From: Knoellia remsis
GTDB lineage: Bacteria; Actinomycetota; Actinomycetes; Actinomycetales; Dermatophilaceae
Length of the DNA stretch: 64,000 nucleotides
NCBI RefSeq assembly: GCF_003002895.1
Contig: NZ_PVTI01000011.1
Location: 1 to 64,000 of the forward strand
Reading direction: 5' to 3'
Both the position numbers and the translations under genes were made by a program. This document shows positions 422 through 61,000 of this stretch, in pieces; position 1 is the first letter of the stretch, and the number at the start of each line of letters is the position of its first letter. Below the pieces are notes generated by a model, which was given only the letters and a program-made list of their open reading frames with translations, had not been told where the DNA came from and did not search any database.

Positions 422-946
422 TCAGTCGTCGGTGAGGGTCAGCTGGAGGCCGCCGACGAGGCTGCTCGACACGTTGTAGAGGAACGCCGACAGGGTCGCG
501 AGCGCCGTCATGAGGATGACGTCGATGACGCCGACGACGATCGCGAGCGAGACGACGCGACCGAAGCCGACGAAGTCCATGATGTCGAAGCTGTTCTCGC
601 CGTCCTGGATGATCTGCCCGACGAGGCCGTTGACCTGCTCGAAGACACCCATGCCGGCGAGGATCATCCACAGCACGGCGACCATGACGACGCCGGCGAT
701 GCCGAGCGCCACGGACAGCAGGAACGACATCTTCATCGCCGACCACGGGTCGACCCGCGAGACGGTGAGCCGGACCCGACGGCCAGTGCCGCGCGGAGCA
801 GCCGCGGCGGACCGGGGCGTCGTCGGCACCGAGTCGGCGCCGGTTGCGCCGTCGGAGGCGGACGCACGGGTCATCGAGCGGGTCGGCTCGGCGGAGCCGC
901 TCGATGCACTGCGCATCGAGGTGCCTGCCTGGTCTGCCGTGCTCAC
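422..946 (-). CDS. DUF3566 transmembrane protein
   Basis: This 174-residue protein belongs to the DUF3566 family, which actinobacteria usually encode directly after gyrA. Its N-terminal 60 residues are Ser/Ala/Thr-rich and likely disordered. From about residue 62 ([20 protein letters not shown]) the family domain begins, with two hydrophobic segments at roughly 72-97 and 128-152. The ATG start at 946 overlaps the gyrA stop by four bases (ATGA), so translation is probably coupled to gyrA. Function is not established; a cell-envelope or division-associated membrane role has been suggested for relatives. A strong hairpin follows the stop. Confidence 0.88.
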
Positions 947-3729
947 TCGTCGCCTCCGTCACCGTCGGTGTCGTTGTTGTCAGTCGACGGTACGCCATCG
1001 GCCTGTTCCCCGGCAGACGCCGCACCGGTGGGTGCCGCACCGGCAGCCTCCTCGGCCGAGGCCTCGTCGACCGGGGCCGCGTCGCCTGCCTCCTCGACCG
1101 GGGCCTCGTCACCGGGGACCTCGTCGACCGGGGTGCCGTCCACGGGGGAGACACCCTCGGCGTCGGCCTCCGCGACCTCCTCCTCGACGACCTTCTCGGC
1201 GTTGCGGGCGACACCGACGATGGCGTCGTTGCGGCCGGGCTTGGCGAACCAGACGCCGGCCGTGTTGCGACCCGTGAGCCGGACCTCGTCGACGCGGGAG
1301 CGGACGATGTTGCCGCGCTCGAAGACGACCATGACCTCGTCGTCCTCGCTGACGGTGAGCGCGCCGACGAGGTCGCCGCCCTTCTCGGTCTGCTTGGCGA
1401 CGGCGACACCGAGGATGCCGCGACCCTTGACGTTCCACTGCGACGCCTTGGACCGCTTCGCCAGGCCGGACTCGAAGACGACGAACACGTCCGGGTCCGA
1501 CCCGACCTCGATGACCGACATCGACAGCAGCGAGTCGTCGCCGCGGAACTTCATGCCGGTGACACCGGACGTCGAGCGACCCATCGGCCGCAGCGTCGCG
1601 TCGTCGGCGTGGAAGCGGACCGACTGGCCCTTGCGCGAGACGAGCAGCAGGTCGTCCTCGGCGCTCGTCAGCCCGGCGCCCACGAGCTCGTCCTCGTCGC
1701 GCAGGTTGACGGCGATGAGGCCGCCGGTGCGGGGGGAGTCGTACTCGCCGAGACGGGTCTTCTTGACGAGGCCGCCCTTGGTGGCGAGCACGAGGTACGG
1801 CGACGACTCGTAGTCGCGCAGCGCGAGCACCTGGGCGATGTGCTCGTCCGGCTGGAACGCCATGATGTTCGCGACGTGCTGGCCCTTGGAGTCGCGGCCG
1901 GCGTCGGGCAGCTCGTAGGCCTTGGTGCGGTAGACCCGGCCGAGGTTGGTGAAGAACAGCAGCCAGTGGTGCGACGTCGTCGTGAAGAAGTGCGCCACGA
2001 CGTCCTCGCCGCGCAGCTGGGCGCCCTTGACGCCCTTGCCGCCGCGCTTCTGCGAGCGGTAGGCGTCGACCTTGGTCCGCTTGGCGTAGCCGCCGCGCGT
2101 GATCGTGACGACGACGTCCTCCTCGGGGATGAGGTCCTCCATCGACATGTCACCGTCGAAGCCGTGGATCGTGGTGCGCCGGTCGTCGCCGTACTTCTCG
2201 ACGATCGCGGCGAGCTCCTCGGACACGATGTCGCGCTGGCGGGCGGGCTTGTCGAGGATGTCCTTGTAGTCCTCGATGAGCGCCTGCAGCCGGTCGTGCT
2301 CCTCGATGATCTTTTGCCGCTCCAGGGCCGCGAGCCGGCGCAGCTGGAGGTTGAGGATCGCGCGCGCCTGGACCTCGTCGACGTCGAGGAGCTCGATGAG
2401 CCCGTCGCGCGCCTCCTCGACCGTGGGGCTGCGGCGGATGAGCGCGATGACCTCGTCGAGCATGTCGAGGGCCTTGAGGTAGCCGCGCAGGATGTGGATC
2501 TCTTCTTCGGCCTTCTTGAGCCGGTATGCCGTGCGCCGCTGGATGACGTCGATCTGGTGGTCGACCCAGTGCCGGATGAAGGCGTCGATCGGCAGCGTGC
2601 GCGGCACCCCGTCGACGAGGGCGAGCATGTTCGCGCCGAAGTTCGTCTGCAGCTGGGTGTGCTTGAAGAGGTTGTTGAGGACGACCTTCGCGACCGCGTC
2701 GCGCTTGAGCACGATGACGAGGCGCTGGCCCGTGCGCCCGGACGTCTCGTCGCGGATGTCGGCGATGCCCTGGAGGCGGCCCTCCTTGACGTGCTCGGCG
2801 ATCTTCTGGGCGAGGCTGTCGGGGTTGACCTGGTAGGGCAGCTCGGAGACGACGAGGCACTGCCGGCCCTGGATCTCCTCGACCTCGACGACGGCGCGCA
2901 TGATGATCGAGCCGCGGCCGGTGCGGTAGGCGTCCTCGATGCCGGAGCGGCCCATGATGAGCGCACCGGTCGGGAAGTCGGGCCCGGTGATCCGGGCCAT
3001 GACGGCCTCGAGGGTCTCGTCCCGGCTGGCCTCGGGGTTGTCGAGGACCCACTGCGCGGCGTTCGCGACCTCGCCGAGGTTGTGCGGCGGGATCTGGGTG
3101 GCCATGCCGACGGCGATGCCAGCAGAGCCGTTGACGAGCAGGTTCGGGAAGCGCGCCGGGAGCACCGTCGGCTCCAGCGTCTTGCCGTCGTAGTTCGGCG
3201 CGAAGTCGACGGTCTCCTCGTCGATGTCCCGCACCATCTCCATCGACAGCGGCGCCATCCGGCACTCGGTGTACCGCGGGGCGGCGGCCGGGTCGTCGCC
3301 GGGGCTGCCGAAGTTGCCCTGCCCCTGCACGAGCGGGTAGCGCAGCGCCCAGTCCTGCACGAGCCGGACGAGGGCGTCATAGATCGCGCTGTCGCCGTGC
3401 GGGTGGTACTGGCCCATGACGTCGCCGACGACGCGGCTGCACTTGTTGAAGCCGCGGTCGGGCCGGTACCCGCCGTCGTACATCGCGTAGAGCACGCGCC
3501 GGTGCACCGGCTTGAGGCCGTCGCGCACATCCGGCAGCGCGCGCGACACGATCACCGACATCGCGTACTCGATGTAGCTCCGCTGCATCTCGGTGTTGAG
3601 GTCGATCGGCTCGATCCGGTCGCTTTCACCGGGCGACCGGTCGTGCATCACCGACCCCTGGTCACCGGTGTCCTCGGTGTCCACGTCGGTGTCCAGGTCG
3701 TTGTCCGTGCCGTCGATGTCGTCAGCCAT
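943..3729 (-). CDS. gyrA: DNA gyrase subunit A
   Basis: GyrA is the DNA-cleaving and rejoining subunit of the A2B2 gyrase that introduces negative supercoils. The 928-residue protein has an acidic extension of about 40 residues before the conserved start ([18 protein letters not shown]). The catalytic tyrosine is Y153 in PRYTECRM. The quinolone-resistance region reads [14 protein letters not shown], with Ser114 and Asp118 in the drug-sensitive state. The GyrA box appears as QKRGGKG in the C-terminal beta-pinwheel, which is needed for DNA wrapping. An acidic, Ala/Glu/Asp-rich tail of about 65 residues follows the pinwheel, longer than in many homologues. It is transcribed after gyrB across a 198-bp gap holding a palindromic repeat, and its stop overlaps the DUF3566 gene. 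Confidence 0.98.
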
Positions 3730-3814
3730 CAGTTCCCTTGTCCTTCAGTCACATTCATGCGGCCGTATGCCGCGTCAGTAGCGTTCGTGGGTGCGCTCGC
3801 CGTCGGTGCCGCTC

Positions 3815-3895
3815 GTGTCCCGAACCCGTCCAATTGGTGAGTTTTTCCCGGGGCCGCTCGTGTCCCGAACCGTCCAATTGGGTGAGATCGGGACG
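3815..3895. repeat. Duplicated palindromic repeat (family A) between gyrB and gyrA
   Basis: Two nearly identical copies (3815-3841 and 3860-3895) lie in the gyrB-gyrA gap. The full copy has GTCCCGA/TCGGGAC ends and an inner CCAATTGG palindrome. The second copy matches 33 of 36 bases of a stretch at 13518-13553 inside an unrelated coding gene, showing that this is a dispersed element rather than a local gyrase operator. It may still act as a transcript-processing or attenuation hairpin in the gyr mRNA. Confidence 0.7.
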
Positions 3896-3927: not shown

Positions 3928-6099
<2,172 letters not shown>

Positions 6100-7807: not shown

Positions 7808-8290
7808 TCAGGGCTGGGCGGAGAGGGAGCGTTCGCAGACCGCGCGGACGTCGTCGGGGATCGGGACGGTGTGCCGCCCGGCGCGGTCGATGTAGACCTG
7901 CGCCCACAGCCCGTGCGCGGCGATGTCGTCGCTGCCGTCGGCGAAGAGGCCGAACGCGAAGGTGACGCTCTTGGTGCCGATGCGTTCGACACGCACGCCG
8001 ACGTCGATGGGGTGCGGGTAGGCGAGCTCGGAGTAGAACCGGCACGACGACTCCGCGACGACACCGAGGGTCGGGGTGCTCGTCTCGTCGATGCCGGTCT
8101 CGCGGATGAGCCAGGCGTTGAGGACCGAGTCGAAGAGCTCGTAGTAGACGGCGTTGTTGAGGTGGCCGTACATGTCGTTGTCGGCCCACCGCGTGCTCAC
8201 CCGCTGGACCTCGGGGAAGTCCTCGCGCCGCAGCGTCCTCGGGTCGCGGGTGGTGCCGGTCGAGGTTGGGTGTGCGGCAGGTGAGCTCAT
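7808..8290 (-). CDS. Acyl-CoA thioesterase, 4HBT hotdog family
   Basis: This 160-residue cytoplasmic protein should hydrolyse acyl-CoA thioesters. The hotdog-fold signature is clear: STRWADNDMYGHLNNAVYYELFDS, in which the Asp of the ADND segment and the GH-x-N-N-A-V-Y-Y helix match the 4HBT active-site region of the YbgC/FadM type. The remaining beta-strands (SCRFYSELAYPHPIDVGVRV, SVTFAFGLFA) follow the usual order. The start at 8290 gives a normal family length; TAGCGT at 8303-8298 on the minus strand sits seven bases upstream, so it may be leaderless. A longer frame to 8359 exists but adds a non-conserved extension. Substrate is unknown. Confidence 0.88.
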   Translation of the reverse strand: MSSPAAHPTSTGTTRDPRTLRREDFPEVQRVSTRWADNDMYGHLNNAVYYELFDSVLNAWLIRETGIDETSTPTLGVVAESSCRFYSELAYPHPIDVGVRVERIGTKSVTFAFGLFADGSDDIAAHGLWAQVYIDRAGRHTVPIPDDVRAVCERSLSAQP

Positions 8291-8373: not shown

Positions 8374-8432
8374 CTCTGATCTTGCGTCGTCCTTTGGGCC
8401 AGGGTGGTCCAAAGGACGACGCAAGATCAGAG
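8374..8432. repeat. Perfect 24-bp inverted repeat (palindromic element family C)
   Basis: Arms at 8374-8397 and 8409-8432 are perfectly complementary over 24 bp around an 11-nt loop. The element lies 86 bp downstream of the ABC ATPase stop (8518, minus strand) and upstream of the thioesterase gene, so it could end the importer transcript. No U-run follows on either strand, and the arms are longer and more perfect than the other terminators here, which suggests a mobile or dispersed palindrome. Confidence 0.75.
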
Positions 8433-8517: not shown

Positions 8518-9708
8518 TCAGTCGGGGGTCGGCAGGGTGTGGTCGCCGACGAGGAGGCTCGGGACGAGGCCCGGCTGGATCGACGCGACGACCTCGGTCC
8601 CGACGGGATAGCGGACCGAGTGCGGCTGCCACGAGCGGACCGTGCGCCCGGACGGCAGCCGGACCGTGTGCAGGACGAACGCGCCGTGGTACTCGACCCG
8701 CTCGACGACCGCCCGCGCACGCGCGACCCCGTCGCCTCCGTCCGCGGGCAGCGTCAGCGTCAGCGCCACCTCGTGCGGCCGCACCACCACCTCGGCCTCG
8801 CGTGCGTCGACGTCGGTGCGCACCATGACTCGGCCGAGCTCGCTCATCAGCCCGTGCTCGTCGGCCACCACCGGCAGGAAGTCCGCGTCCCCCATGAAGG
8901 ACGCGACGAACCGACTCACCGGCCGCTCGAACACCTCCGCCGGGGTGCCCAGCTGCTCCACGACACCGGCGCGCATGACTCCGATCCGGTCGCCGACGGT
9001 GAGTGCCTCGGTCTGGTCGTGCGTCACGAGGATCGCCGTCGTGCCCGTGGCACGCAGGGCGTCGACCGTGTCGGTCCGGACCCGGGCGCGCAGCGACTCG
9101 TCGAGCGAGGAGAACGGCTCGTCGAGCAGCACGACCTCCGGACGCGGCGCGAGCGAACGGGCGAGCGCGATGCGCTGCTGCTCACCACCGGAGAGCTCGT
9201 GCGGGTAACGATCAACCGTGTGCGGCAGGTGGACGAGCTCGAGCACCTTCCGCACACGGGCGTCCTGCTCCGCGCGCGCCACTCCCGCGAGCCCGAACCG
9301 GATGTTGTCGCCCACGGTGAGGTGCGGGAACAGCGCGTGCTCCTGGAAGACGAGCCCGACGCGCCGCTTCTCGGGCGGCACCCACGCACCCCGCCCCGCG
9401 ACCGTCGCGTCACCGACGCGCACCTCGCCGGCGTCCGGACGTTCCAGCCCGGCGACGAGTCGCAGCAGCGTCGACTTGCCGCAGCCGGACGGCCCGATGA
9501 GCGCGACGATCTCGCCCGCTTCGACGGCGAGGTCCAGCTCGCACACGGCCGGGGTGTCACCGTAGGACTTCGAGACGGTGCGCAGCGCGAGCGCCGGATC
9601 CCGTTGTGCCCCAGTGTCATTCGTTTCGTATGCCGTCCGCGCACCCACGTGGGTCTCGCGCGCGTCGTCCGGGGTTGCGTCCCGTCCCACCGTGGCCTCG
9701 CTCGTCAT
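8518..9708 (-). CDS. Ferric-iron type ABC transporter ATP-binding protein (FbpC-like)
   Basis: This 396-residue ATPase energises the importer made with the two upstream genes. After about 40 unconserved residues, the nucleotide-binding domain shows Walker A GPSGCGKST, Q-loop FQEHALFPH, signature LSGGEQQR, Walker B VVLLDEPFSSLDE and switch His in VTHDQTEAL. A C-terminal TOBE-like regulatory domain (from about residue 290, VVVRPHEVAL) is typical of FbpC/PotA-type importers. The ATG overlaps the permease stop as ATGA (9705-9708), so the three genes form a tight operon. The partner binding protein points to Fe3+ as substrate. Confidence 0.9.
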   Translation of the reverse strand: MTSEATVGRDATPDDARETHVGARTAYETNDTGAQRDPALALRTVSKSYGDTPAVCELDLAVEAGEIVALIGPSGCGKSTLLRLVAGLERPDAGEVRVGDATVAGRGAWVPPEKRRVGLVFQEHALFPHLTVGDNIRFGLAGVARAEQDARVRKVLELVHLPHTVDRYPHELSGGEQQRIALARSLAPRPEVVLLDEPFSSLDESLRARVRTDTVDALRATGTTAILVTHDQTEALTVGDRIGVMRAGVVEQLGTPAEVFERPVSRFVASFMGDADFLPVVADEHGLMSELGRVMVRTDVDAREAEVVVRPHEVALTLTLPADGGDGVARARAVVERVEYHGAFVLHTVRLPSGRTVRSWQPHSVRYPVGTEVVASIQPGLVPSLLVGDHTLPTPD

Positions 9709-12539: not shown

Positions 12540-15353
12540 GTGACGACCGTGGCCGGCGCCCGTGACCGCGTCGCCCTCGTCGGGCGGCTGCGGTCGTTCG
12601 GTGACGCCGTGGCGCTCACCTGGGTCGGTGGTTCCGGTGGTCTCGAGACGTTGACGTATGCCGGCCTCGCGGCGCGCGTGGACGCGCGTCGACGCGCGCT
12701 TGGGGAGACCCCGCGGCTCGTCGCCATTGAGATGTCGAACGACGTCGAGACCGTGGTGACGCTGCTCGCCTGCCTCGCCGGCGGGCACCCGGCGCTGTGT
12801 GCGTCCCCGGGAGGTCCCGGACCCGCTGCGCCGCAGGAGCCGTCGTGGTGGGAGGCGTGGGACCCGGACGTCGTGGCCCGCGGTGACGCGCTGGTCTCGC
12901 GGCGGGCCGGGACGGCGCACGACCTGCACCCCGACCTCGCGCTGCTGCTCTCGACCTCGGGCAGCACCGGCTCGCCCAAGCTCGTCCGGCTCTCGGCCGC
13001 GAACGTCGACTGCAACGCGGCCCAGATCGTCGACGCGCTCGCGATCACGGGCGACGACGTCGCGGCGACGACGCTGCCGCTGCAGTACTGCTACGGGCTG
13101 TCGGTCCTGCTGAGCCACCTGTCGGTGGGGGCGTCGGTGCTGCTCACCGACCTGTCCGTCGTGGACGAGTGCTTCTGGTCGGCCTTCGTCGCGGCGGGCG
13201 GGACGACCTTGGCCGGGGTGCCCTACACCTTCGACCTCCTCGACGCCGCCGGGTTCGCGTCGCGGGAGCTGCCGCGGCTGCGCTCGGTCACCCAGGCCGG
13301 CGGACGGCTCGCGCCAGACGCCGTGCGCCGCTGGGCCCGCCTCGGCGAGGAGCGGGGCTTCGACTTCACGGTGATGTACGGCCAGACCGAGGCGACCGCC
13401 CGGATGGCGACGCTCCCGGCGCGGCTGGCGTCGGAGAACCCGACGTCGATCGGGGTCGCGGTGCGGGGCGGGCACTTCGCCCTGGCACCCGTGGAGGACG
13501 ACATGGCCGCTGACTCCGTGTCCCCAACCGTCCACTTGGGTGAGCTCGGGACGGGTGGGGTTGGTGAGCTCACCTACGAGGGCGGCAACGTCATGATGGG
13601 CTACGCCCTCGAGCCGGCCGACCTGGCACGCGGCGCCGAGGTGACCACGCTGCATACCGGCGACCTCGCCCGCTTCACCGCCGACGGGCTCGTCGAGATC
13701 GTCGGACGGCTCGGACGCTTCGCCAAGGTCGTCGGGCTGCGGCTCGACCTCGACCGGATCGAACGCGATCTGGGCGACCTTCCGGGGCTGGACCACACGG
13801 CATACGTCATGGACGGCGGCGACCGCCTGCTCGTCACGGTCGTCGACGCGACGGATTCCGTTGTCGCGCAGGTGCGTTCGTTCGTCAGTGACCGGTATGC
13901 CGTCCCGCGCGCCGCCGTCGTCGTCGCACCCGTCGCAGCAGCCGACGTCCCCCGGACCGCGTCCGGCAAGGTGGACAGACCAAGCCTCACCGAGCGACTT
14001 ATTGCGCTTTCCGGCACCACGGAGCGACTTATTGCGCTTTCCGGCCGCACTGCGGACGAGTCACCGATGTCGGAACGGGCCGGAAAGCGCAATAAGTCGG
14101 ACCAGAACGGGACCGGCGTGAATCTCGCCGAGGGGATCCGTGGGATCTATGCGGACGTGCTCGACCGGCCGGACGCGTCGGTCGACGACAGCTTCGTGAC
14201 GTTGCGCGGTGACTCGCTCTCGTACGTCGAGGCGTCGGTCCGCCTCGAAGGGCTCCTCGGAACGCTCCCGCCGTCGTGGCACGTCCGCCCGATTCGGGAG
14301 CTCGCCGAGCTCGCCGCACCGACCGCCCACGACGATGCACCGGACCGGGCGCCGAACCGCTTGTCGTGGCTGCGGCTGCGCTCGCTCGAGACCTCTCTCG
14401 TCCTGCGGGCACTCGCCATCGTCGCGATCGTGCTCACCCACGCGGAGGTCATCGAGGTCCGCGGTGGCGCGCACGTCCTGCTCGCGGTCGCCGGGTTCGC
14501 GTTCGCGCGGTTCCAGCTGTCGGGGGAGAGCCGGGCCGGTCGGGTCGCGCACGTCCTGGAGTCGTTGACCCGGATCGCGCTGCCCGCGATGGTGTGGGTC
14601 GCGGTGCTCGTGCTCATCGACGAGCGCTACTCGTGGTGGAACGCTGCCCTGCTCACGTCGGTGGCCGGGGACGACGTCAACGCGCAGTGGCGGTACTGGT
14701 TCGTCGAGGCGGTCGTCCAGATCCTCGCGCTGCTCGCGGTGCTGCTCGTGATCCCGTGGGTGGACCGGCTCGAGCGGGCCCGTCCGTTCGCGGTGCCGCT
14801 GGCCCTCGCGGTCGCGGGGCTGGTCTTCCGGTTCGGGCTCGTCCCGGTCGGGACGCACCACGTCAACGGCCGGGCCGCGATGGTGCTGTGGCTCTTCGCC
14901 CTCGGCTGGGCGATGGCCCGGGCCTCGGCGACGTGGCAGCGCTGGCTGCTCACGGCATACGTCCTCGCCGTGGTTCCGGGGTTCTTCGGTGGCGACATGG
15001 AGCGGGAGTGGACGATCGTCGCGGGGTTGCTCGTGCTCACGTGGGTGCGGGCGGTCAGGGTGCCGGCGTTCGTCGTGCCGCTGCTCGTGCCGCTCGCGTC
15101 GGCGTCGCTGTTCATCTACCTCGTGCAGTGGGAGGTCATGGGGCGCGTGGGGTACTCGCTGCTCGGGGCGTGCGTCGCCGTGCTCACCGGATGGATCGCG
15201 TGGCGGGGTGCGTCACCCATCGTCGAGCCGGTGGCCCGCTGGGTCGGGGCTCAGAGCTCGAGGGTCCTGTCGAAGAGCTCTCGCACGGGCCGCGGCAGCG
15301 CCGGCTCGGGGATGGTGACGTCGAGCGGCGGCTCCTCGCAGCTCACGCCGTAG
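12540..15353 (+). CDS. Three-domain protein: AMP-forming adenylation domain, acyl carrier domain, membrane acyltransferase
   Basis: The 937-residue protein joins an adenylation domain (about 1-480; ATP-binding motif STSGSTGSPK, A5-like YGQTEATAR, and GELTYEGGNVMMGY), a carrier domain (about 525-590; phosphopantetheine Ser559 in RGDSLSYVE), and an acyltransferase-3-like domain with about ten membrane segments (from about 610). The layout suggests that an acyl or aminoacyl group is activated, loaded on the carrier and passed to an acceptor by the membrane domain, like DltA, DltC and DltB combined; the substrate is unknown. Two dispersed palindromic repeats lie in frame within it (residues 327-338 and 485-520). 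The GTG start is chosen from the -10 element eight bases upstream. The 3' end overlaps the convergent protease gene by 103 bp. Confidence 0.85.
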   Translation: MTTVAGARDRVALVGRLRSFGDAVALTWVGGSGGLETLTYAGLAARVDARRRALGETPRLVAIEMSNDVETVVTLLACLAGGHPALCASPGGPGPAAPQEPSWWEAWDPDVVARGDALVSRRAGTAHDLHPDLALLLSTSGSTGSPKLVRLSAANVDCNAAQIVDALAITGDDVAATTLPLQYCYGLSVLLSHLSVGASVLLTDLSVVDECFWSAFVAAGGTTLAGVPYTFDLLDAAGFASRELPRLRSVTQAGGRLAPDAVRRWARLGEERGFDFTVMYGQTEATARMATLPARLASENPTSIGVAVRGGHFALAPVEDDMAADSVSPTVHLGELGTGGVGELTYEGGNVMMGYALEPADLARGAEVTTLHTGDLARFTADGLVEIVGRLGRFAKVVGLRLDLDRIERDLGDLPGLDHTAYVMDGGDRLLVTVVDATDSVVAQVRSFVSDRYAVPRAAVVVAPVAAADVPRTASGKVDRPSLTERLIALSGTTERLIALSGRTADESPMSERAGKRNKSDQNGTGVNLAEGIRGIYADVLDRPDASVDDSFVTLRGDSLSYVEASVRLEGLLGTLPPSWHVRPIRELAELAAPTAHDDAPDRAPNRLSWLRLRSLETSLVLRALAIVAIVLTHAEVIEVRGGAHVLLAVAGFAFARFQLSGESRAGRVAHVLESLTRIALPAMVWVAVLVLIDERYSWWNAALLTSVAGDDVNAQWRYWFVEAVVQILALLAVLLVIPWVDRLERARPFAVPLALAVAGLVFRFGLVPVGTHHVNGRAAMVLWLFALGWAMARASATWQRWLLTAYVLAVVPGFFGGDMEREWTIVAGLLVLTWVRAVRVPAFVVPLLVPLASASLFIYLVQWEVMGRVGYSLLGACVAVLTGWIAWRGASPIVEPVARWVGAQSSRVLSKSSRTGRGSAGSGMVTSSGGSSQLTP
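13518..13553. repeat. Palindromic element family A inside a coding gene
   Basis: These 36 bases match the gyrB-gyrA intergenic copy (3860-3895) at 33 positions. They start exactly on a codon boundary and add twelve residues (VSPTVHLGELGT) to the adenylation domain between FALAPVED and GVGELTYEGG, where family members normally have a short surface loop. Confidence 0.7.
13992..14099. repeat. Palindromic element family B inside a coding gene
   Basis: A 24-bp unit occurs twice in direct orientation (13992-14015 and 14022-14045), and a 21-bp inverted copy lies at 14079-14099, able to pair with either. All three copies are in codon phase and encode ERLIALSG twice and AGKRNKS once. The stretch falls in the linker between the adenylation and carrier domains, so the reading frame survives. 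AT-rich codons (CTT ATT, AAT AAG) are unlike the rest of the gene. Confidence 0.8.
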
Positions 15354-16849
15354 CGGAACGCGTCGGGGACCATCCGCTCCTGCGCCAGCCGCCTGAGGGT
15401 GGGGCTGCTGAGCAGCGTGCGCCACTCGTCGGCGTCACCCCGGGGGAGCTCGGCCAGGTCGACGGTGCGCTCGCGAACCATGCCCGCGACGCCGCCGGTG
15501 CGCCGGACGCTCACCTGCTGCGGCGCGCCCTCGCTCGGAGTGGTGTCGGGGTCCGAGTCGGGTGCCGGCTCCGGCCGGGGCCCAGGGGTGGGGCTCGGTG
15601 CGGGTGTCGGGCTGGGTGACGGCGTGGGGCTGGGCGAGGGCTCTGGGGTCGGGGTGGGCTGTGGCGTCTCGCCGCCCGGTCCGCCGGTGTCGCCGCCATC
15701 CGTCCCCGCGCCGTCCGTGACGCCCACGGCGCGCCACGCGTCACGCACGGCAGCCACCTCGGGTGAGTCCGCGCCATACAGGCTCTCCGCCGCGGTCTCG
15801 GTGAGGGCAGCGAAGGTGGGGAAGTCGCAGTCGGCCTTGATGTCGCCGGTGATGGCGCCGTACCAGATCGCGCCGGGCCGCTCCCACGCGTTGCCGCCGA
15901 GGGTCGTCGCGACGAGGTGGAACGCCTTGTTCGGGATGCCGGAGTTGATGTGCACGCCGCCGTTGTCGTCGTCGGTGACGACGTAGCCGTCCATGTGCCC
16001 GGCCTGCGGGTCCTTGCCGAGGCGCGGGTCGTCGTAGGCGGTGCCCGGCTCCTTCATCGAGCGCAGGCCGACGCCCTGGACGCCGGGGGCGAGCAGTTCG
16101 GCGCCGATGATCCAGTCGGACTGCTCGGCGCTCTGGCCGAGGGTGCGCTGCTTGACGAGGATGCCGAAGACGTCCGAGACGTGCTCGTTGAGGGCTCCGG
16201 ACTGGTCCTGGTAGTTCAGGCCGGAGGTGTATTGCGTGACGCCGTGCGCGAGCTCGTGCCCGATGACGTCGAGGCTGCGGGTGAACCCGAGGAGAATCTC
16301 GCCGTCGCCGTCGCCGAAGACCATCTGGGTGCCGTCCCAGAAGGCGTTGTCGTAGTTCGTGCCGTAGTGGACGGTGGCGATGAGGCCGAGCCCGCGGTCG
16401 TCGAGGGAGTTGCGCCCGTATGCCGCGTTCCACAGTTCCCAGGTCGCGCCGAGCCCGTCGTAGGCCTCGTTGACCGCGGTGTCGTCGGTGGGCGGGTCGC
16501 CCTCCTTGCGGACCTGGGTGCCGGGGAGGTCGGTCGTGTTCTTGGCGTCGTGGATGAGCCGGTTCGGCGCCTCCTCGGTGGCGCGAGCCTCGCTGCGGCT
16601 GACGCTCGGGCTGGGGCTGGCGGTGGGGCTGGTCGTCGGGTCCGGCTGGAGCGAGCGCTGGCGGGCCATCCGCTCGTAGCGGAGCTTGTCGAGGCGCAGC
16701 GTCTCGCGGGCGCGTTCCTCGAGGTGCGGCTGGCCGGAGGTGGCGAGTGCCTCGAGGACGTAGGGCGGGACGATCGAGCAGCACACCGGGCTCGGCGCGG
16801 GCTCGTGCTTGGCGGGCGTCGAGGTCAGGGGCTGGTCGGTGCTGCTCAT
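15251..16849 (-). CDS. M4 (thermolysin/protealysin-type) metalloprotease with C-terminal emfourin-like domain
   Basis: The 532-residue protein has a zinc protease core with HELAH at 198-202, the third zinc ligand Glu221 in GALNEHVSDVFG, and the catalytic His segment DNGGVHINSGIPNKAFH. There is no signal peptide; the short propeptide begins CCSIVPPYVLEAL, as in protealysins, which are made without a classical leader. A Pro/Thr/Ser linker (about 385-440) leads to a C-terminal domain of about 85 residues (VSVRRTGGVAGMVRERTVDL onward, then FRYGVS) that resembles emfourin, the protealysin inhibitor normally encoded as a separate gene. The enzyme may therefore be self-restrained until cleaved; this is inference. 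The gene converges on the acyltransferase gene. Confidence 0.85.
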   Translation of the reverse strand: MSSTDQPLTSTPAKHEPAPSPVCCSIVPPYVLEALATSGQPHLEERARETLRLDKLRYERMARQRSLQPDPTTSPTASPSPSVSRSEARATEEAPNRLIHDAKNTTDLPGTQVRKEGDPPTDDTAVNEAYDGLGATWELWNAAYGRNSLDDRGLGLIATVHYGTNYDNAFWDGTQMVFGDGDGEILLGFTRSLDVIGHELAHGVTQYTSGLNYQDQSGALNEHVSDVFGILVKQRTLGQSAEQSDWIIGAELLAPGVQGVGLRSMKEPGTAYDDPRLGKDPQAGHMDGYVVTDDDNGGVHINSGIPNKAFHLVATTLGGNAWERPGAIWYGAITGDIKADCDFPTFAALTETAAESLYGADSPEVAAVRDAWRAVGVTDGAGTDGGDTGGPGGETPQPTPTPEPSPSPTPSPSPTPAPSPTPGPRPEPAPDSDPDTTPSEGAPQQVSVRRTGGVAGMVRERTVDLAELPRGDADEWRTLLSSPTLRRLAQERMVPDAFRYGVSCEEPPLDVTIPEPALPRPVRELFDRTLEL

Positions 16850-49899: not shown

Positions 49900-50868
49900 A
49901 TGACGGTCACCCCTGACCAGGCTGCGTGGTTCACCAAGACCTTCGAGGCCATGGTGAGCAACGTCGACAAGGCCGTGCTCGGCAAGGAGCACGTCATCCG
50001 CCTGGCCCTCACGTGCATGCTCTCCGAGGGGCACCTGCTCCTCGAGGACTTCCCGGGCACGGGCAAGACCCAGCTCGCGCGAGCACTGTCGAGCACGGTG
50101 CAGGGGACCAACAGCCGGATCCAGTTCACGCCCGACCTGCTGCCGTCCGACGTCACCGGCGTGACGATCTACGACCCGAACACGAAGAAGTTCGAGTTCC
50201 ACCAGGGTCCGATCTTCGCGACGATCGTCCTCGCCGACGAGATCAACCGCGCCTCGCCCAAGACGCAGTCCGCGCTCCTCGAGGTCATGGAGGAGGCCCG
50301 CGTCACCGTCGACGGTGTCCGGCACGAGGTCGGCGAGCCGTTCATGGTCATCGCGACGCAGAACCCCATCGAGCAGGCCGGCACCTACCGGCTGCCCGAG
50401 GCCCAGCTCGACCGCTTCCTCATGAAGACGACGCTCGGCTACCCCGACCATGACGCGACCGTCCGGGTCCTGCGCGACGCCAAGACCCGGGACCGCACCA
50501 AGGCGCTCGAGCCGGTCGTCACCTCGCAGGTCGTCCTCGACATGGCCGAACTCGCCGACGAGGTGCATGTCGACGACGCGATCCTCGACTACGTCTCGCG
50601 CATCGCCGAGGAGTCGCGCCGGCACGTCAGCGTCCGCCTCGGTTTGTCGGTGCGTGGCTGCCTGGCGTTCATCCGCTGCGCGAAGACGTGGGCCATCGGC
50701 CAGGGCCGCACCCACGTCATCCCCGACGACATCAAGCTGCTCGCCCAGCCGGTGCTCAACCACCGCCTGCTCGTCACGGCCGAGGCCCAGTTCGCCGGCA
50801 TCACCGTCGACCAGGTCATCACCCAGATCCTCGGCGAGGTCGCCCCGCCGACCGAGCGCGTCGCCTGA
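49900..50868 (+). CDS. MoxR-family AAA+ ATPase
   Basis: A 322-residue chaperone-like ATPase. Walker A is EDFPGTGKTQLARAL, Walker B is IVLADEINRASPKTQSALLE, the sensor motif is VIATQNPIEQAGTYRLPEAQ, and the lid ends with a conserved C-terminus. MoxR proteins mature or activate partner proteins, usually with DUF58 and transglutaminase-like partners, exactly the next two genes. The ATG at 49900 follows GAGAGGAC. Confidence 0.93.
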   Translation: MTVTPDQAAWFTKTFEAMVSNVDKAVLGKEHVIRLALTCMLSEGHLLLEDFPGTGKTQLARALSSTVQGTNSRIQFTPDLLPSDVTGVTIYDPNTKKFEFHQGPIFATIVLADEINRASPKTQSALLEVMEEARVTVDGVRHEVGEPFMVIATQNPIEQAGTYRLPEAQLDRFLMKTTLGYPDHDATVRVLRDAKTRDRTKALEPVVTSQVVLDMAELADEVHVDDAILDYVSRIAEESRRHVSVRLGLSVRGCLAFIRCAKTWAIGQGRTHVIPDDIKLLAQPVLNHRLLVTAEAQFAGITVDQVITQILGEVAPPTERVA

Positions 50869-52639: not shown

Positions 52640-55044
52640 GCGAAGCCACCCAGAGCCGTCGCGAGCTGCGCGAGGAGCAGCAGGCCTCGCGGAGCCTGTC
52701 GATGCCGTCGTTCGGTATGCCGTCCCGTGACGCCCTCGTCGACCTCGCCTTCGCGCTCGTCCTCGTGGGGATCGCGCTCGTGGGCTTCCGCACCGGCTTC
52801 ATCGGCTGGGAGTGGGTGCTCGCAGCCGGTGCCGGGGTCGTGCTCGGCACCCTCGTCGCCCACGTCGCCGTCGCCCGATCGTGGCCGCTCGTCCTCACCG
52901 CACTCGTCCTCGTCGCCGTGCACTTCCTCCTCGGTGGGCCGTTCGCCGTCCGCGGGGACCTCATCGGCGGCGTCGTCCCGAGCCTGCAGACGCTGCGCGA
53001 CCTCGCGACGGCTCCGGTCACGGGGTGGAAGGAGTGGCTCACCCTCCTGCCGCCGGTCGATGCCCGCGGTCCACTCGTGGCCCTGCCGTGGGTCACGGGA
53101 CTGGTCGGCTCGGCGCTGACCTACGGCGTGGCCCGGCGGTTCCGCAGCGTCAGTGCCGCGGCGATCGCCCCGGTGGTCCTGCTCGCCGGCAGCATCGCCC
53201 TCGGCACCCAGCAGCCGGCGGCCAAGCTCGTCCAGGGTGTCGTCTTCGCGCTCGTCCTCATCCTGTGGCTCGTGGCCCGCTCGGCTCGCACGCGCGCTGC
53301 GCTCCAGAACGGCGCCGGCCGGCAGGCCCGCACCGTCACCGGGGTCGCGCTCCTCGCCGTCGCCGCGGTGGCCGGAACCTTCCTCGGACCGTTCCTGCCG
53401 GGGACCGACGAGGGGGCTGCGCGGGCGGTCGTCCGCAGCGAGCTCACGCCGCCCTACGACGTCGCCCAGTTCACCAGCCCGTTGTCGGGGTTCCGGGAGT
53501 ACACCGAGCCGAACGCCGCCGAGCTCTACGACAAGGAGATCCTCTCGGTCTCCGGCCTGCCCGACGGCACTCCCGTGCGGTTCGCGACCCTCGACAGCTA
53601 CGACGGCCTCGTCTGGGGTGCCGCCGACCGGGCCATGGACGGCACGCCGTTCCAGCAGGTCGGGTCGCGCATCGCGCCGCGTGCCACGGGTGAGAGCGCG
53701 ACCGTGACCGTGACCGTTCCGGAGGGCGGCTACGACGGGGTGTGGCTCCCGCTCGCCGGGTCGACGACCGGTATCAGCTTCACCGGCGCACGCAGTGACG
53801 ACCTCGCCGACGCGTTGTGGCTCAACACCGCGACCGAGACCGCCGCGGTCCCGGCGTCGATCGGCCCGGGTGACAGCTACACCTTCGACACCGTGCTCAC
53901 GGGGGAGTACTCGACGAAGCTCCCCGCCGAGCTCGACGTCGCGAGCGGCGGCCAGATCTCGCAGGACACGAGCTTCCTCGACAGCAAGCTCGACGCCTGG
54001 ACCGGTCAGGAGAGCGGCGCCTGGCAGAAGCTCGTCGCCGTCGCGAAGACCATGAGCTCCGAGGGTGCCTACACCGACGGTGGGACGGCGAACTCCTACG
54101 AGAAGGTCTACCTGCCCGGTCACAGCCTCGGCCGACTCAGCCGCTTCGTCGGCTCGACCCAGCTCGCGGGCAACGACGAGCAGTACGCCGCGACCCTCGC
54201 CCTCGTCGGCAACCGCCTCGGCATCCCGAGCCGGGTCGTCATGGGCGCCATCCCCGAGGCCGGCGGCGTCGTCAAGGGCAAGGACGTGCACGCCTGGGTC
54301 GAGGTGCAGCAGGACAACGGCACGTGGCACGCCCTGCTGCCGTCGACGTTCCTGCCCGACCGCAACAAGAAGCCCAACGAGCAGCAGCTCAAGTCGGAGG
54401 AGCAGAAGGTCGGCGCCCAGGTGCCGCCGCCCGCCGGTGTCAACCCGCCGTCGGTGCTCCAAGGTCCCGACCAGGCCCAGAACGCCACGGACATCAAGAA
54501 GAAGAAGCGCAACCCGCTCGACATCGGTGCCTGGCCGCTCTGGCTCAAGATCCTCGTCCTCGGCATCCTCCTGCCGATCCTGCTCGCCGTCGGGATCTGG
54601 GCGCTCATCCGCTGGCTCAAGGCGCGTCGTCGCCGCAAGCACGCGACGACCGGTCCGACGCCGGCGCGCGCGGCGTGGGTGTGGCGCGACCTCGTGAGCG
54701 ACGCCCGTAGCCTCGGTGTCGCCGTCCCGCGGGGCGCGACCCGGCTCGAGCAGGCCGCGGCCTTCCCCGAGGGGGTCACGGCCGCCCCCATCGCGGCAGG
54801 CGCGAACGCCGCCGTCTTCGGCCCGGGTGACCCGGAGCCCGAGGTCGCGGTGGGTCTGCTCGAGGAGGCCGACGGGGTTCGCCGCGAGCTGCGCGGTCAC
54901 ACCTCCCGCTGGCGCCGCCTGCGCTCCGACCTCAGCCTGCGCCCGTTCTTCGAACGCGACCCGCGGACGCGGACGGCGGCTCGCCGCCTCCCGTCGCTGC
55001 CCGCGCTGCGCCGGACCAAGGCCACGGGCGGTGCCTCCGCGTGA
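52636..55044 (+). CDS. Transglutaminase-like (TgpA-type) membrane protein lacking the catalytic Cys
   Basis: The 802-residue protein has about six membrane spans in the first 260 residues, an extracellular region, a transglutaminase-like core (about 475-570), a further membrane span (about 635-660, LWLKILVLGILLPILLAVGI) and a cytoplasmic tail. In the core the segment GNDEQYAATLALVGNRLGIP aligns with the GxCxQ active site, but the Cys position holds Asp514; His552 (DVHAWVEV) is kept. It is probably not a transglutaminase or protease by the classical mechanism and may act as a scaffold or binding protein. It overlaps both neighbours (ATGA and GTGA). Confidence 0.88.
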   Translation: MSEATQSRRELREEQQASRSLSMPSFGMPSRDALVDLAFALVLVGIALVGFRTGFIGWEWVLAAGAGVVLGTLVAHVAVARSWPLVLTALVLVAVHFLLGGPFAVRGDLIGGVVPSLQTLRDLATAPVTGWKEWLTLLPPVDARGPLVALPWVTGLVGSALTYGVARRFRSVSAAAIAPVVLLAGSIALGTQQPAAKLVQGVVFALVLILWLVARSARTRAALQNGAGRQARTVTGVALLAVAAVAGTFLGPFLPGTDEGAARAVVRSELTPPYDVAQFTSPLSGFREYTEPNAAELYDKEILSVSGLPDGTPVRFATLDSYDGLVWGAADRAMDGTPFQQVGSRIAPRATGESATVTVTVPEGGYDGVWLPLAGSTTGISFTGARSDDLADALWLNTATETAAVPASIGPGDSYTFDTVLTGEYSTKLPAELDVASGGQISQDTSFLDSKLDAWTGQESGAWQKLVAVAKTMSSEGAYTDGGTANSYEKVYLPGHSLGRLSRFVGSTQLAGNDEQYAATLALVGNRLGIPSRVVMGAIPEAGGVVKGKDVHAWVEVQQDNGTWHALLPSTFLPDRNKKPNEQQLKSEEQKVGAQVPPPAGVNPPSVLQGPDQAQNATDIKKKKRNPLDIGAWPLWLKILVLGILLPILLAVGIWALIRWLKARRRRKHATTGPTPARAAWVWRDLVSDARSLGVAVPRGATRLEQAAAFPEGVTAAPIAAGANAAVFGPGDPEPEVAVGLLEEADGVRRELRGHTSRWRRLRSDLSLRPFFERDPRTRTAARRLPSLPALRRTKATGGASA

Positions 55045-58000
55045 GACTTCCGGGGGGACGTGGCGCCGCCGGTAGCGGCGGGAGTCGGCGCACCCGCGCC
55101 GACCGGCGCCGGGGCCGCATCGCGTCGGCGACCGTCGTCGCCGTCGCGGCGGCGTCGTTGGTGTATGCCGCGGTGTCGTCGCAGGGTGCGACGGTTCACG
55201 AGGCCGATGTCGGGGATGGTGGGGTGTGGATCACCTCGGATGTGCAGGCGAAGTTCGGTCGGCTGAACAAGGCCGTGTCTCAGCTGGACGCGGGTGTGGC
55301 CGCGGATGTGGCTCCGGGGTCGGGGATCGACGTGCTGCAGGATGGCAGTGCGGTGGTGGCGTGGTCGAAGGCGACGGCTCAGCTGCAGCCGATCGATGTG
55401 CGGACGGCGCAGCTGCGTGAGGAGACGGCGACGGCGCCGGCGGTGCCGGAGCGGGCTCCTGGTCGGGTGGTGCCGACGTTCGTGGGTCTGCGGGGTGGCA
55501 CGTTGGCGGCGGTGGACCCGAAGTCGGGCAAGGTGTGGGCGCAGCGGGTCGACACTCGCAAGGGCATCGACTCGTTGTCCGGGCTCGGTACGGGGGCCAA
55601 GCCGCTTGCGACGGTGGGTGCGGATGCGGTTCTCGCGGTCGGTGAGGACGGAGCCGTTCACGTCGCCTCGGGCGCGAAGGGCACGGTCACGACGATTCGT
55701 CCCGTGGGGGAGAAGTTCGCCAAGCCGATCACGGTGGACAGTGGTGCCAAGGGCACGCTCCTGCAGGTCACAGCCGTCGGCGGGGACTGGGTGGTCTACA
55801 ACCCCGAGCGCGACACCGTGCACAGCGCAGGCAACACCGACGGTGCCGCCGCGGGTTTCGCGGCGACCGAGGGTGAGCGTGCGTATGCCGTCCTGCAGGC
55901 TCCCGGACCGGCATCCGGTTCCGTGGCGGTCGCCGGAGGCAACGGTCTCCGGATGGTGCCCCTGGAAGGCGGAGTCGGCCAGGGCGGGATCGAGATCTCC
56001 GAACGTGTGGGTCGCAGCGGCGGCGTCCCGCTGCCGGCGAGGCCGGTGGTGCTCCGGGGTTGTGTGCACGGTGCATGGTCCGAGCCGGGCAAGGTGTTCT
56101 ACGGCGCCAACTGTGGACGCCAGCAGCCGGTGCCGACGGGCACGATCGAGAACGTCAGCGAGACCCCGCTGCGCGATGGTGTGGCCTTCCGCGTGAACCG
56201 TGGCGTGATCGTGCTCAACGACCTCGACAACGGCAGTGCGTGGGACCTGCTGCAGGACAAGCAGAAGATCGACAACTGGGATGCGCTCATCCCGCCGCCG
56301 CAGCGCGACGACGACAACAAGAAGAAGGACAAGAACCTCGTCGACGACGCGGTCCAGCAGCAGCCGCCGGAGGCCAAGCCCGACGACCTGCGGGTCCGCG
56401 CCGGACGCACGAGCAAGCTGCATGTCCTCGACAACGACACCGACGCGGCCGGCTCCGTCCTCGCCATCGACCCGGCCGACGTGAGCGCCCCGTCGAACCC
56501 CGATGTGCGCGTCTCCGTTGCGGCCGACGGCCAGAGTGTGGATGTCAACGTGCCTGCCGGCACCACGGCGCCCTTCCAGTTCACCTACCGCGTCGGCAAC
56601 GGCACGGTGAAGTCCAAGACCCGCGCCACCGTCAAGGTGAGCATCGTCGACGACGCCACCAACAACGCCCCGTTCCTCCGGCCCGGACAGGCCAAGCTCG
56701 CGAAGACGGCATACCCGGTCCTCGCGGGCAAGCGCATCTCGGTGCCGGTCGCGGCGGACTGGCGTGACCCGGAGTCCGACCCGGTCATCGCGACGGTCGA
56801 CGGTGAGGGCCTCAGCATCGATGGACAGGGACGCCTGTCGTACCTGGCTCCGCCGGAGCCCGGCAAGGGTGCGGTCGAGTACGTCGCCGACGACGGTCGC
56901 GGCGGGCGCACCAAGGGTTCGGTGCCCGTCGAGGTCATCGCGTTGACCGAGACGCGCCCGCGTCCGCCGGTCACCCAGCCGGACGTCATCCGTGGCGTCG
57001 TCGGCAAGCCGCTGCAGATCGAGCCGCTCGGCAACGACATCGCCGGCGCCGACCCGAGCGACCCCTCGGCTGAGATGCGTCTCGCCGGTGACGTACGCGC
57101 GACCGGCTCCCTCACGACCGACACCAACCTCGACACCGGCGTGGTCACCGTGACGCCGTCTGCGCCCGGGTCCTTCGAGCTGTCGTATGCCGCGCAGGTC
57201 GGCGGTGGCGTCGCGCCGGGTCGGATCCGGGTCGACGTCATCGAGGCGGCCGACCCGGAGGCGCTACCCGTCGCGGTGGGCGACACCGCGACGCTGCGGG
57301 ACCAGTCGCCGACCCTCGTCGACGTGCTGGCCAACGACTACAGCCCGCGGGCGGACGTCCTCGTCACCCAGGCTGCCGGTGGCGCGACCAGTGAGGACTC
57401 GTGGCTCCAGGCGTCGATCTACCAGGGCAGGTGGGTGCGGCTGGTGGCGCTCGAACCCGCGGGGTCGGCGGCCAACGGCACGAGGTCGGGCACGATCCGC
57501 TACACCGTCTCGGACGGGTCGAAGTCGGCCACGGGTCAGGTGACCGTGACCCAGAAGCCGACGCAGGAGCAGAACCCTGTCGTCGAGGACGACTCCGCCG
57601 TGGTGCGCGAGGGCGACACCGTCGCGGTGCCCGTGCTCGACAACGACACCATGGCCGACGGCATACCGCTCTCCATCGACCCGAAGTCGGTCAAGGTCCT
57701 CGGTGACGGGGCCCAGCAGACCGCCTTCGCCTCCGGCAACGTCGTCCGGTTCGTCCCGTGGCAGCGCGGACTCACCGCCGAGGCCACCGTCACGATCGAG
57801 TACGCCGCGTACCCCGAGGGGATGCCCGAGCGGGCTCAGACCGGTCGCATCTCCGTGCGGGTCACCCCGCTGCCGACGACGGCCCGACCGAACCAGGTGC
57901 CGGTGGCGCGCAGCTTCAGCTCGTCGGTGACGGCCGGTGACCCGCTCACGATCACGGTGCCGACGAGTGGCGTCGACCCCGACGGTGACACGGTCGGTGT

Positions 58001-61000
58001 GACCGGCATCGTCGGGGCCCAGGACGGCGCCCTCGACCTCAAGTTCGGTCGGGTCGTCTCTACGGGCCCCTCGACGATCCGCTACGAGTCCTTCCCGACC
58101 GCTTCGGGCACCGAGGTCATCCCGTACGAGGTGGTCGACAGGTTCGGCGGCGTGAGCCGGGCGTTCGTCCGGGTCGGGGTGGTGGCACCGGGTGACCCGC
58201 AGCCGCCGGTCGCGGTCGACGACACCGTCACCGCCGCCCCGGGCAAGACCGTCTCGGTGCCGGTCACGGCCAACGACCTCATCGCCCGCGGTGACTCGGT
58301 GGAGCTGCTGTGGAAGGAGTCCAACCCGGGCGAGGACCTCACTGCGTGGAAGGTCGACGAGGAGCAACAGACGGTCTCGACGAAGGTTCCCGACGAGGGT
58401 GCCCCCGTGCACGACTTCGTGTACGGCATCAGCAACGGGGTGTTCGACCCCTCACGCGCCAGCCTGCTCGTGCGCGGGCAGAAGGACTTCATCAACCCAC
58501 CGACAGCCACTGATGACGTCGCCAAGCCGAAACCGGGGGAGACCTCGACGGTGGTGGACGTCCTCGCCAACGACACCGACATCGACTCCGACCCGAGCAC
58601 CCTGAAGATCGTCGAGGTCCTCTCCCCGAACGCCACGGTCGAGAGCGGCAAGGTTCGCGTCACGATCACCGAGCAGCCGCAGACCGTCCCCTACGTCATC
58701 GAGGACGAGGACGGCGCCCGGGCCATGGCGGTGATCTATGTCCCGCGGGGCGACGGAGGGACACCGTTCGTCGTCGAGGGCGCGCTCATCGAGATGGACA
58801 AGGACGCCACGAAGACCGTCGCGCTCTCCGACTATGTGAAGTCCCCCCAGTCCCGGGTCCTCGGGGTCACCTCGCCCGAGACGATCTCGACCGCGCCCTC
58901 GGCCAACCTGTCGTTGACCGCGGAGGGGGGCCAGCTCACGCTCACGTCCTCGGGTGCCTATGTCGGACCGGCCTCGGTGATGTTCGAGGTCTCCGACCAG
59001 CAGAGCGAGGACCAGAAGGACGTCAACACGGCATACGTCTCGGTGCCGGTGCAGGTCGGGCCCAAGGTGGCGCTGCTGCGCTGCCCGAGCACCGCGGTGA
59101 CGATCCTCGCGGGTGGCAACCCGCGCGAGCTCGACATCCCGTCACTGTGTCGGGCCTGGCTGCCCGTGGGCCTGTCCATGGACGACGTCGAGTTCACCTC
59201 GCAGTGGCAGAGCGAGCCCGCCGACCTGCGCACCGAGCGCAGCGGCACCGGACAGCGGCTCGTGACTCTCAGCGCAGGTTCCGGCGCCCGGTCCGGCAAG
59301 GGTGTGCTCCGGGTCGGGGTTCGCGGGTCCGACGTCACCGCAGCCATCAACGTCACGGTCGTCGGCGCCCCGACCGAGCAGCAGACGGCCACCGATCCGG
59401 CGACGAGCATGCCCCCGCCGCGACTGCGACCCATGACGATCAACGGGCTCAAGGAGGGCGACAGCCAGCAGCTGGACGTGCGCTCCTACCTCGACTCGCC
59501 CCTCGAGAACCCCGAGTGCACGATCGTCGCGGCAGCCGTCACCAGCGGGCAGGGCCTCCAGGTCTCACGCAGCGGCTGCGTCCTCACCGTCACCGCCGGG
59601 GCGAAGCCGGGTCCGAGCGGTCGCATCTCGGTCAACGTCAGCGACGGACCCAACCGACAAGCCGTCGGCGCGGTTGCGGTGACCATGCTGGGGCGCCCCG
59701 GTGCGCCGACCGCCGTTGCGGCACAGGCCGATCGGGACGCCGGCGGCCGAGCACGCGTCTCCTGGACCGCCCCGGCCTACGACGGCGGTGCACCGATCCG
59801 CACCTACACCGTGAAGTGGACCGGCGGCTCCACGGGCAGCCAGGACTGCTCCGCCTCCCCGTGCACCATCGCCGGTCTGACCAACGGCAAGGACTACTTC
59901 TTCACCGTCACGGCGACCAACCTCGTCGGCGAGGGCGACCCCGGTGGTCCCAGCAATGCCGCCCGACCCGACACCAAGCCGGGGCCGGTCGGTGGGGTGA
60001 CCATGGCCGGCCGCGGCGACGGGTCGTTGACGATCAGGTGGTCGCCGCCGGAGAACAAGGGCTCGGCGGTGAGCAAGTACGTCGTCCGCCTCGTCCCCAC
60101 CGGTGGCGGCAGCCCGCGCCTCGTCGAGGTGGCCGCTCCTGCGACGACGACGACGGTCAGCGGCCTCGACAACATGAGCCAGTACTCCGTCGCCGCGCAG
60201 GCCTACAACGAGGCCGGGCCCGGACCCTTCGGGACGGCCGCGACGATGCAGTCCGCCGGCAAGCCACCGGCGCCGACGGGCCTCAAGCTCACCCCGAGCG
60301 GGCCTGGCCCCAACGCCGACCTCGCCTCGCTCACCCTCACGTGGAACACCACGAGCCCCAACGGCCCGCCGCTCAAGCACTACACCGTCCGCAAGCGCGT
60401 CAACGGCGGGGCGTGGCAGGTCCTGCGGACCGTCGCCGCGGGAACGACCCGCACCACCGACCAGGTGAGCTACGACGGCAAGCGCTATGAGTACACCGTC
60501 TCGGCGACCAACGGCGCCGACCTCGAGGGTGCCCCCTCGACGCCGCAGTCGTTCACGTCCGTCGGACAGCCCTCGACGCCTCGGATCACGAGCGCCACGA
60601 CACCCAAGTCCGACTACGAGGCCACGGTGACCGTGAGCCTCGGCCAGCCGCGCTCCGGGGCGTTCACCTCGCTGACATGGCGCTCCTCCTCCGGGCGCAG
60701 CGGGGTCATCCCCTGCTCGGCATCGACGTGCCCGGCCGGCGGCACCCGGACCTTCACGACGTCGGCGCTGCCGCTCGGACAGCAGACCATCACGGTCACG
60801 ACGTACAACGGCACGATGTCGTCGCAGCCCTCCAACGGGGTGGGTGTCTCCCCGTACGGCCCGACGCCCCGCCCGGAGCCGAACGGCGGCTCGACGAGCG
60901 GCAAGACCGTCACGTTCCGCTGGACCCTGCCCACCAACGGCCGCCCCATCACCAAGGTCGTCATCTCGGGCGCCAGGTCCTACAACGGCTCACCCATCAC

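Follow-up and report, generated by a model that had tools for sequence, protein, structure and literature searches.

Palindromic repeats of two families in an adenylation gene of Knoellia

The host gene and its inserts

The window analysed here is a stretch of 64,000 nucleotides and forms part of a 3.57-Mb Knoellia genome. It contains a gene for a 937-residue adenylation protein, and two segments of this gene belong to repeat families, which we call A and B. The features needed below are as follows, with coordinates referring to the window in all but the last line.

12540–15353, plus strand: host gene; 937 aa, with an AMP-binding (adenylation) domain, a phosphopantetheine carrier and a membrane C-terminal part
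13518–13553, plus strand: family A element in the host gene, translated in frame as V-S-P-T-V-H-L-G-E-L-G-T; forms the core of a net gain of 16 residues at aa ~323–338
3860–3895, plus strand: family A copy in the gyrB–gyrA gap, with a degenerate second copy just upstream (~3813–3845)
13992–14015, plus strand: family B left arm, first (duplicated) copy; 24 bp identical to 14022–14045
14022–14045, plus strand: family B left arm, second copy (the hairpin partner); arm repeat
14079–14099, minus strand: family B right arm (inverted copy); inverted repeat
14025–14099, plus strand: family B hairpin of 75 bp in the adenylation–carrier linker; hairpin score 22
Contig C22, ~49990–50190, minus strand: gene for CydC (TIGR02868) in the window genome, with four tandem in-frame family A copies at a 54-base period in the membrane/ATPase linker

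Profile matches place PF00501 at residues 128–355 of the host protein and PF00550 at residues 532–579; matches to TIGR03098/AA-adenylation score under the curated cut-offs. Its nearest solved folds in a Foldseek search are adenylation domains, headed by the A-PCP structure of McyG. Seven other Knoellia genomes carry orthologs at 70–73 per cent. The reading frame stays open through both inserts, as a preliminary description of this locus had stated. With the inserts excluded, dN/dS is approximately 0.25–0.36, so the gene is not decaying; the protein is under purifying selection outside the inserts, with only the linker relaxed. At its 3′ end, the last ~100 bases (15251–15353) overlap a convergent M4 peptidase gene (15251–16849). 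Matching sequence sits ~4 kb away in relatives, and DNA from between the two genes may have been lost in the window. Elsewhere in the window, two large adjacent genes (55041–61424 and 61611–63998) have long repeats in common (blocks 70–89 per cent identical, 6.47 kb apart) and represent a tandem gene duplication.

The family A element matches the copy between gyrA (943–3729) and gyrB (3928–6075) at 33 of 36 positions, the figure given in the preliminary description. It is identical at all 36 to intergenic copies on contig C22 of the same genome, at ~62678 and ~62721. In a protein alignment the sixteen inserted residues are absent from each of seven congeneric orthologs. This absence, together with the 36-bp identity to intergenic copies, marks it as a derived and probably young insertion. 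The gyr-gap copy folds better than its shuffles (z = -4.6) and its terminal GGGACG is paired, but the in-gene copy folds no better than shuffles (z = +0.33). The term ‘palindromic’ therefore suits family A as a family and applies only weakly to the copy in the gene.

For family B, the two direct copies and one inverted copy described earlier were recovered as identical 20-mers at 13995–14014 (plus), 14025–14044 (plus) and 14080–14099 (minus), where none are expected from 100 shuffles. The hairpin at 14025–14099 has a 22-bp stem and a folding z-score of -7.5, and its 24-bp left arm is repeated 30 bp upstream. Both direct copies start on codon boundaries, as had been claimed for the elements generally, but the inverted copy does not. 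Placement of the inserts in a loop and a domain linker agrees with the AlphaFold model, in which the family A site is predicted to form a loop between two adenylation-domain strands (pLDDT <50 at aa 321–337) and the family B segment is modelled as disordered (pLDDT <50 at aa 493–522).

Six of the eight Knoellia orthologs, the window's among them, hold a family B hairpin in this linker, with the left foot in one frame in all six. Its span is 75 bases in four orthologs, 63 in one, and 75 plus the 30-base left-arm duplication in the window, all multiples of three. Of the two remaining orthologs, that of K. aerolata has an eroded hairpin and that of Knoellia sp. Soil729 has none. Hairpin scores are 22, 22, 21, 20, 16 and 12, whereas 60 synonymous-codon shuffles never exceed 12 (11 for the weakest). 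None of 74 orthologs from genera outside Knoellia has such a hairpin, with scores of 13 or less. The arm sequences differ between species, yet the arms match within each: in a tally across species pairs, which are not independent, 86 differences are both-sided and 30 one-sided. In one Knoellia genome (G007) the linker hairpin closely matches an intergenic element of another (G005), in both arms and loop.

Because the same linker is occupied in the same frame in six of eight orthologs, with arms rewritten in step, the family B insertion appears to be old, and would be either ancestral within the genus or repeatedly re-inserted at one spot. The two inserts are separate events of different age. 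The preliminary description had read two families in one gene as repeated tolerated insertion or as a gene free to vary; the first part fits these two events, but the dN/dS values speak against the second. In the comparison with relatives that it had suggested, the family A residues are missing from the congeners; family B is not specific to the strain. We did not find relatives with the same residues encoded by unrelated codons, the pattern it had named for ancestral protein sequence.

Distribution of the repeat families

A genome search, as suggested in the preliminary description, assigned both elements to dispersed families. A family A core pattern has 51 matches in the window genome at three or fewer mismatches, and another core pattern gives 139 sites (81 + 58) at the same threshold; the control count was zero in each case (reversed pattern for the first). 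Among congeners, again at three or fewer mismatches, K. sinensis has 159 core matches, three others have one to nine each, and four have none. The exact pattern has no match in 95 genomes from other genera of the same family. Copies are often tandem and mainly intergenic, with convergent gaps the commonest location. Many contigs of the window assembly break inside tandem family A arrays (the starts of C2, C3, C6, C21, C47 and C54, and the end of C15), so the true copy number is probably above our count. We considered and set aside a CRISPR-like array, since the intervening sequence is itself repeated and the spacing is irregular.

Family B is a hairpin of 62–78 bp with conserved, fully paired feet (CGACTNNTTGC...GCAANNAGTCG) and self-complementary arms. 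The arms vary between and within genomes; the feet are constant. With feet CGACTNNTTGC/GCAANNAGTCG set 15–45 bases apart, there are 35 hairpins (37–67 bp) in the window genome and 7–24 in each of eight congeners, and none with the reversed patterns. At 46–76 bases apart, there are 3–29 pattern matches per Knoellia genome, including 13 in the window genome. Slightly stricter feet match nine of nine Knoellia genomes and, of 140 genomes from the rest of the family, only two, both from one genus. The same feet, with an arm sequence of their own (CACTGCAGCCACC), were seen in another genus of the family (G108:C1:1899615, and three places in G122). Judging from these matches, the feet would either predate the genus Knoellia or have spread between genera.

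Element positions were assigned relative to genes called with a simple codon-usage gene-finder script, with not every copy inspected. In a sample from K. aerolata, K. flava and K. locipacati plus one window-genome copy, the median distance from a family B element to the nearest 3′ end is 12 bp, where randomly placed elements would give 201 bp. Convergent gaps hold 41 of 88 intergenic copies (18 expected by length, P = 2e-8), and divergent gaps only six (19 expected, P = 2e-4). In five of the 35 window-genome copies, a foot gives the neighbouring gene its stop codon, a TGA within CGACTGATTGC (CGAC-TGA-TTGC). An Rfam scan of nine loci bearing A or B copies returned one tRNA and nothing else. Separately, a near-perfect 28-bp inverted repeat with a 3-base loop at 8374–8432, in the gap between 7808–8200 and 8518–9708, has the look of an ordinary terminator. 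The word GGCATAC was also considered as over-frequent and dropped, as its count is not clearly beyond Markov expectation from its sub-words.

Copies in other genes and the origin of the inserts

We looked for in-gene copies among 60 elements, 59 from K. aerolata, K. flava and K. locipacati and one from the window genome. Six lie within genes whose frame is open through the element: CydD-like genes of K. flava and K. locipacati, and genes for an ABC exporter, an MFS protein, a DUF6297-like protein and a peptidase S15 protein. All three phases are used, which indicates that what the copies share is DNA and not peptide. In the ABC proteins the element sits between the membrane and nucleotide-binding domains, and in the MFS protein at about mid-protein. 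The in-frame copies in further genes fall mostly at domain linkers. Such copies are rare overall, with two repeat-family hairpins within ~750 genes in 860 kb of unselected sequence.

Some linkers are occupied by different families in different species. In the linker of one ABC exporter (P0002), family B is present in K. locipacati and K. subterranea, family A in the window genome and K. sinensis, and a further palindrome, family C (CTCGCCAATTCC...GGAATTGGCGAG), in K. aerolata, K. flava, Knoellia sp. Soil729 and G007. Family C was seen only once as an intergenic hairpin in the sequence examined, so it is weakly supported as a repeat family. The CydD linker holds family B in five species, another palindrome in one, and none in two. 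P0002 and CydD were picked because they carry an element in one species, a selection that does not affect occupancy in the remaining species. In CydC, the four tandem family A copies of the window genome have no counterpart in seven congeners, whose linkers contain neither insert nor hairpin. That the same few linkers are filled across species, though in-gene copies are rare, is more than plain tolerance of random insertion predicts. This recurrent occupancy may reflect insertion hot spots, replacement of one palindrome by another, or some use for the hairpin.

The account that we consider probable is that these are palindromic elements akin to REPs and Rickettsia palindromic elements (RPEs), which spread as DNA and are tolerated in linkers and loops of Knoellia proteins. 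Under it, Knoellia would carry several short palindromic (REP-like) families. Most copies would settle directly 3′ of stop codons, where a hairpin would be harmless, or useful as a transcript end. An occasional copy would enter a gene and survive only where it preserves the frame through its length and flanks, where that frame has no stop, and where the 11–25 added residues fall in a loop or domain linker. The host gene would have been entered in this way at least twice. The family B hairpin would have entered the adenylation–carrier linker before most of the genus diverged, its arms then changing together. Later, and in the window lineage only, a family A copy would have inserted into a loop on the surface of the adenylation domain, and a duplication of 30 bp (10 codons) would have repeated the left family B arm. 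The copies, their frames and positions, their absence in relatives and their recurrence in other genes are direct observations. Dispersal, together with presence or absence among genomes, suggests that families A and B have been mobile. The inserts are most likely tolerated passengers; tolerance rather than use, and transcription and translation through them, are what we infer from the sequences.

Two other accounts, each of which we regard as unlikely, take the recurrent occupancy as their starting point. The linker hairpins could be kept for a function at domain boundaries, as RNA or DNA, whether slowing the ribosome, ending or stabilizing transcripts, or binding a protein, with any family able to refill the place. 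Most Knoellia species do have unrelated palindromes in the same linkers, the position of intergenic copies at 3′ ends is that of terminators, and the hairpin scores in five species (16–22) exceed both the synonymous shuffles and the non-Knoellia orthologs. Covariation of the arms across orthologs of the host-gene linker can also mean selection on the hairpin, though template switching between arms yields covariation too. Against a function, occupancy is patchy: besides the two host-gene orthologs with an eroded or missing hairpin, CydD has none in two species and CydC none in the seven congeners, orthologs outside Knoellia manage without one, and the family A copy in the host gene no longer folds better than shuffles. 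A stronger form, in which the domain linkers of several Knoellia proteins require a hairpin of any family at the DNA or RNA level, for example to time translation, and the elements live off that demand, seems to us less probable again. Alternatively, an enzyme with a site preference, such as for an existing palindrome or linker sequence, could make recurrence a matter of target choice more than tolerance. The P0002 linker, with family C in K. flava and family B in K. locipacati, would fit such hot spots, as would the frequency of nested and tandem copies; however, the linkers differ, no common target sequence was identified, and survivorship in linkers predicts the same picture.

It is very unlikely that the inserts are ordinary fast-changing linker, with the repeats produced by copying one linker elsewhere or by chance. 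The adenylation–carrier linker does vary in length in every relative (44–78 aa outside Knoellia) and is rich in Ala, Pro and Gly. Yet all nine Knoellia genomes have intergenic hairpins with the same DNA feet, the translation phase differs between genes, the chance expectation is zero, and the in-gene hairpin scores far above synonymous shuffles. The intergenic feet, the phases and the shuffles refute this as the main account. Fusion of two neighbouring genes, with the hairpin as the old terminator between them, would suit an insert that lies between two domains and a family that sits 3′ of stop codons. However, the two parts are already joined in orthologs from Streptomyces, Micromonospora, Nocardioides, Microbacterium and others, which have short linkers and no hairpin; these outgroups refute a fusion origin of the linker, which we consider exceedingly improbable.

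Relation to known palindromic elements

Family B resembles intrinsic terminators in forming strong hairpins directly 3′ of stop codons, often between convergent genes. Unlike them, it has conserved feet on both sides and copies within open reading frames, and there is no U-tract terminator match in the host-gene region. The Knoellia repeats also recall MITEs, likewise short non-coding sequences whose ends are inverted and which occur both inside genes and between them, but nearly the whole family B element is one stem. An unsystematic look found no parent transposon for family B, and no near-identical empty site from which to read a target duplication.

REPs of the GTAG/CGTC type are high-copy palindromes, most of them no further than 20 bp from a 3′ end and in gaps between convergent or tandem genes; they sometimes supply the neighbouring gene’s stop codon, some lie inside genes, and those in recB of two Xanthomonas species are at about the same site (PMC3733652). 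The Knoellia copies likewise mostly adjoin 3′ ends, sometimes supply a stop codon and are in some cases intragenic. REPs measure 20–40 bp and have many copies per genome; family A measures ~33–36 bp with over 100 sites in the window genome, and family B is mostly 62–78 bp with tens of copies. Neither has an unpaired GTAG or CGTC tag, the family B feet and the end of the gyr-gap family A copy being paired, and the arms of family B differ between and within genomes although its feet stay constant. Unlike GTAG-type REPs, which have a RAYT (Y1) transposase, the window genome gave no match in a profile search for PF01797 (one genome searched), with control genomes positive.

Rickettsia is the famous example of palindromic DNA that inserts in frame into protein genes, and intragenic REPs are known in proteobacteria and other groups. 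For the actinobacteria, we found no such description in the open-access papers searched. RPEs comprise several palindrome families inserted in frame in unrelated protein genes, where they are tolerated and often number two or more in a single gene (PMC10969869; PMC3733652). Those studied in R. conorii end in CGTC (PMC3733652). The Knoellia elements have no such end, and the likeness meant here is one of behaviour. As a likeness it stands, as the preliminary description had proposed: the families are dispersed, the frame is kept in several unrelated protein genes, and there are relatives without the inserted residues (seven of seven congeners for family A) or without the hairpin (all 74 non-Knoellia orthologs for family B). 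Knoellia differs in being a free-living, GC-rich soil actinobacterium in which most copies are intergenic and a minority lie in genes.

With nine genomes and different families in the same linkers, the genus offers a clean test between tolerated junk and working hairpins at domain borders. The length and sequence of linkers in multidomain enzymes can, on this evidence, evolve by ready-made cassettes of 11–25 residues. By analogy, Knoellia appears to offer a free-living counterpart of the protein-invading palindromes of Rickettsia.
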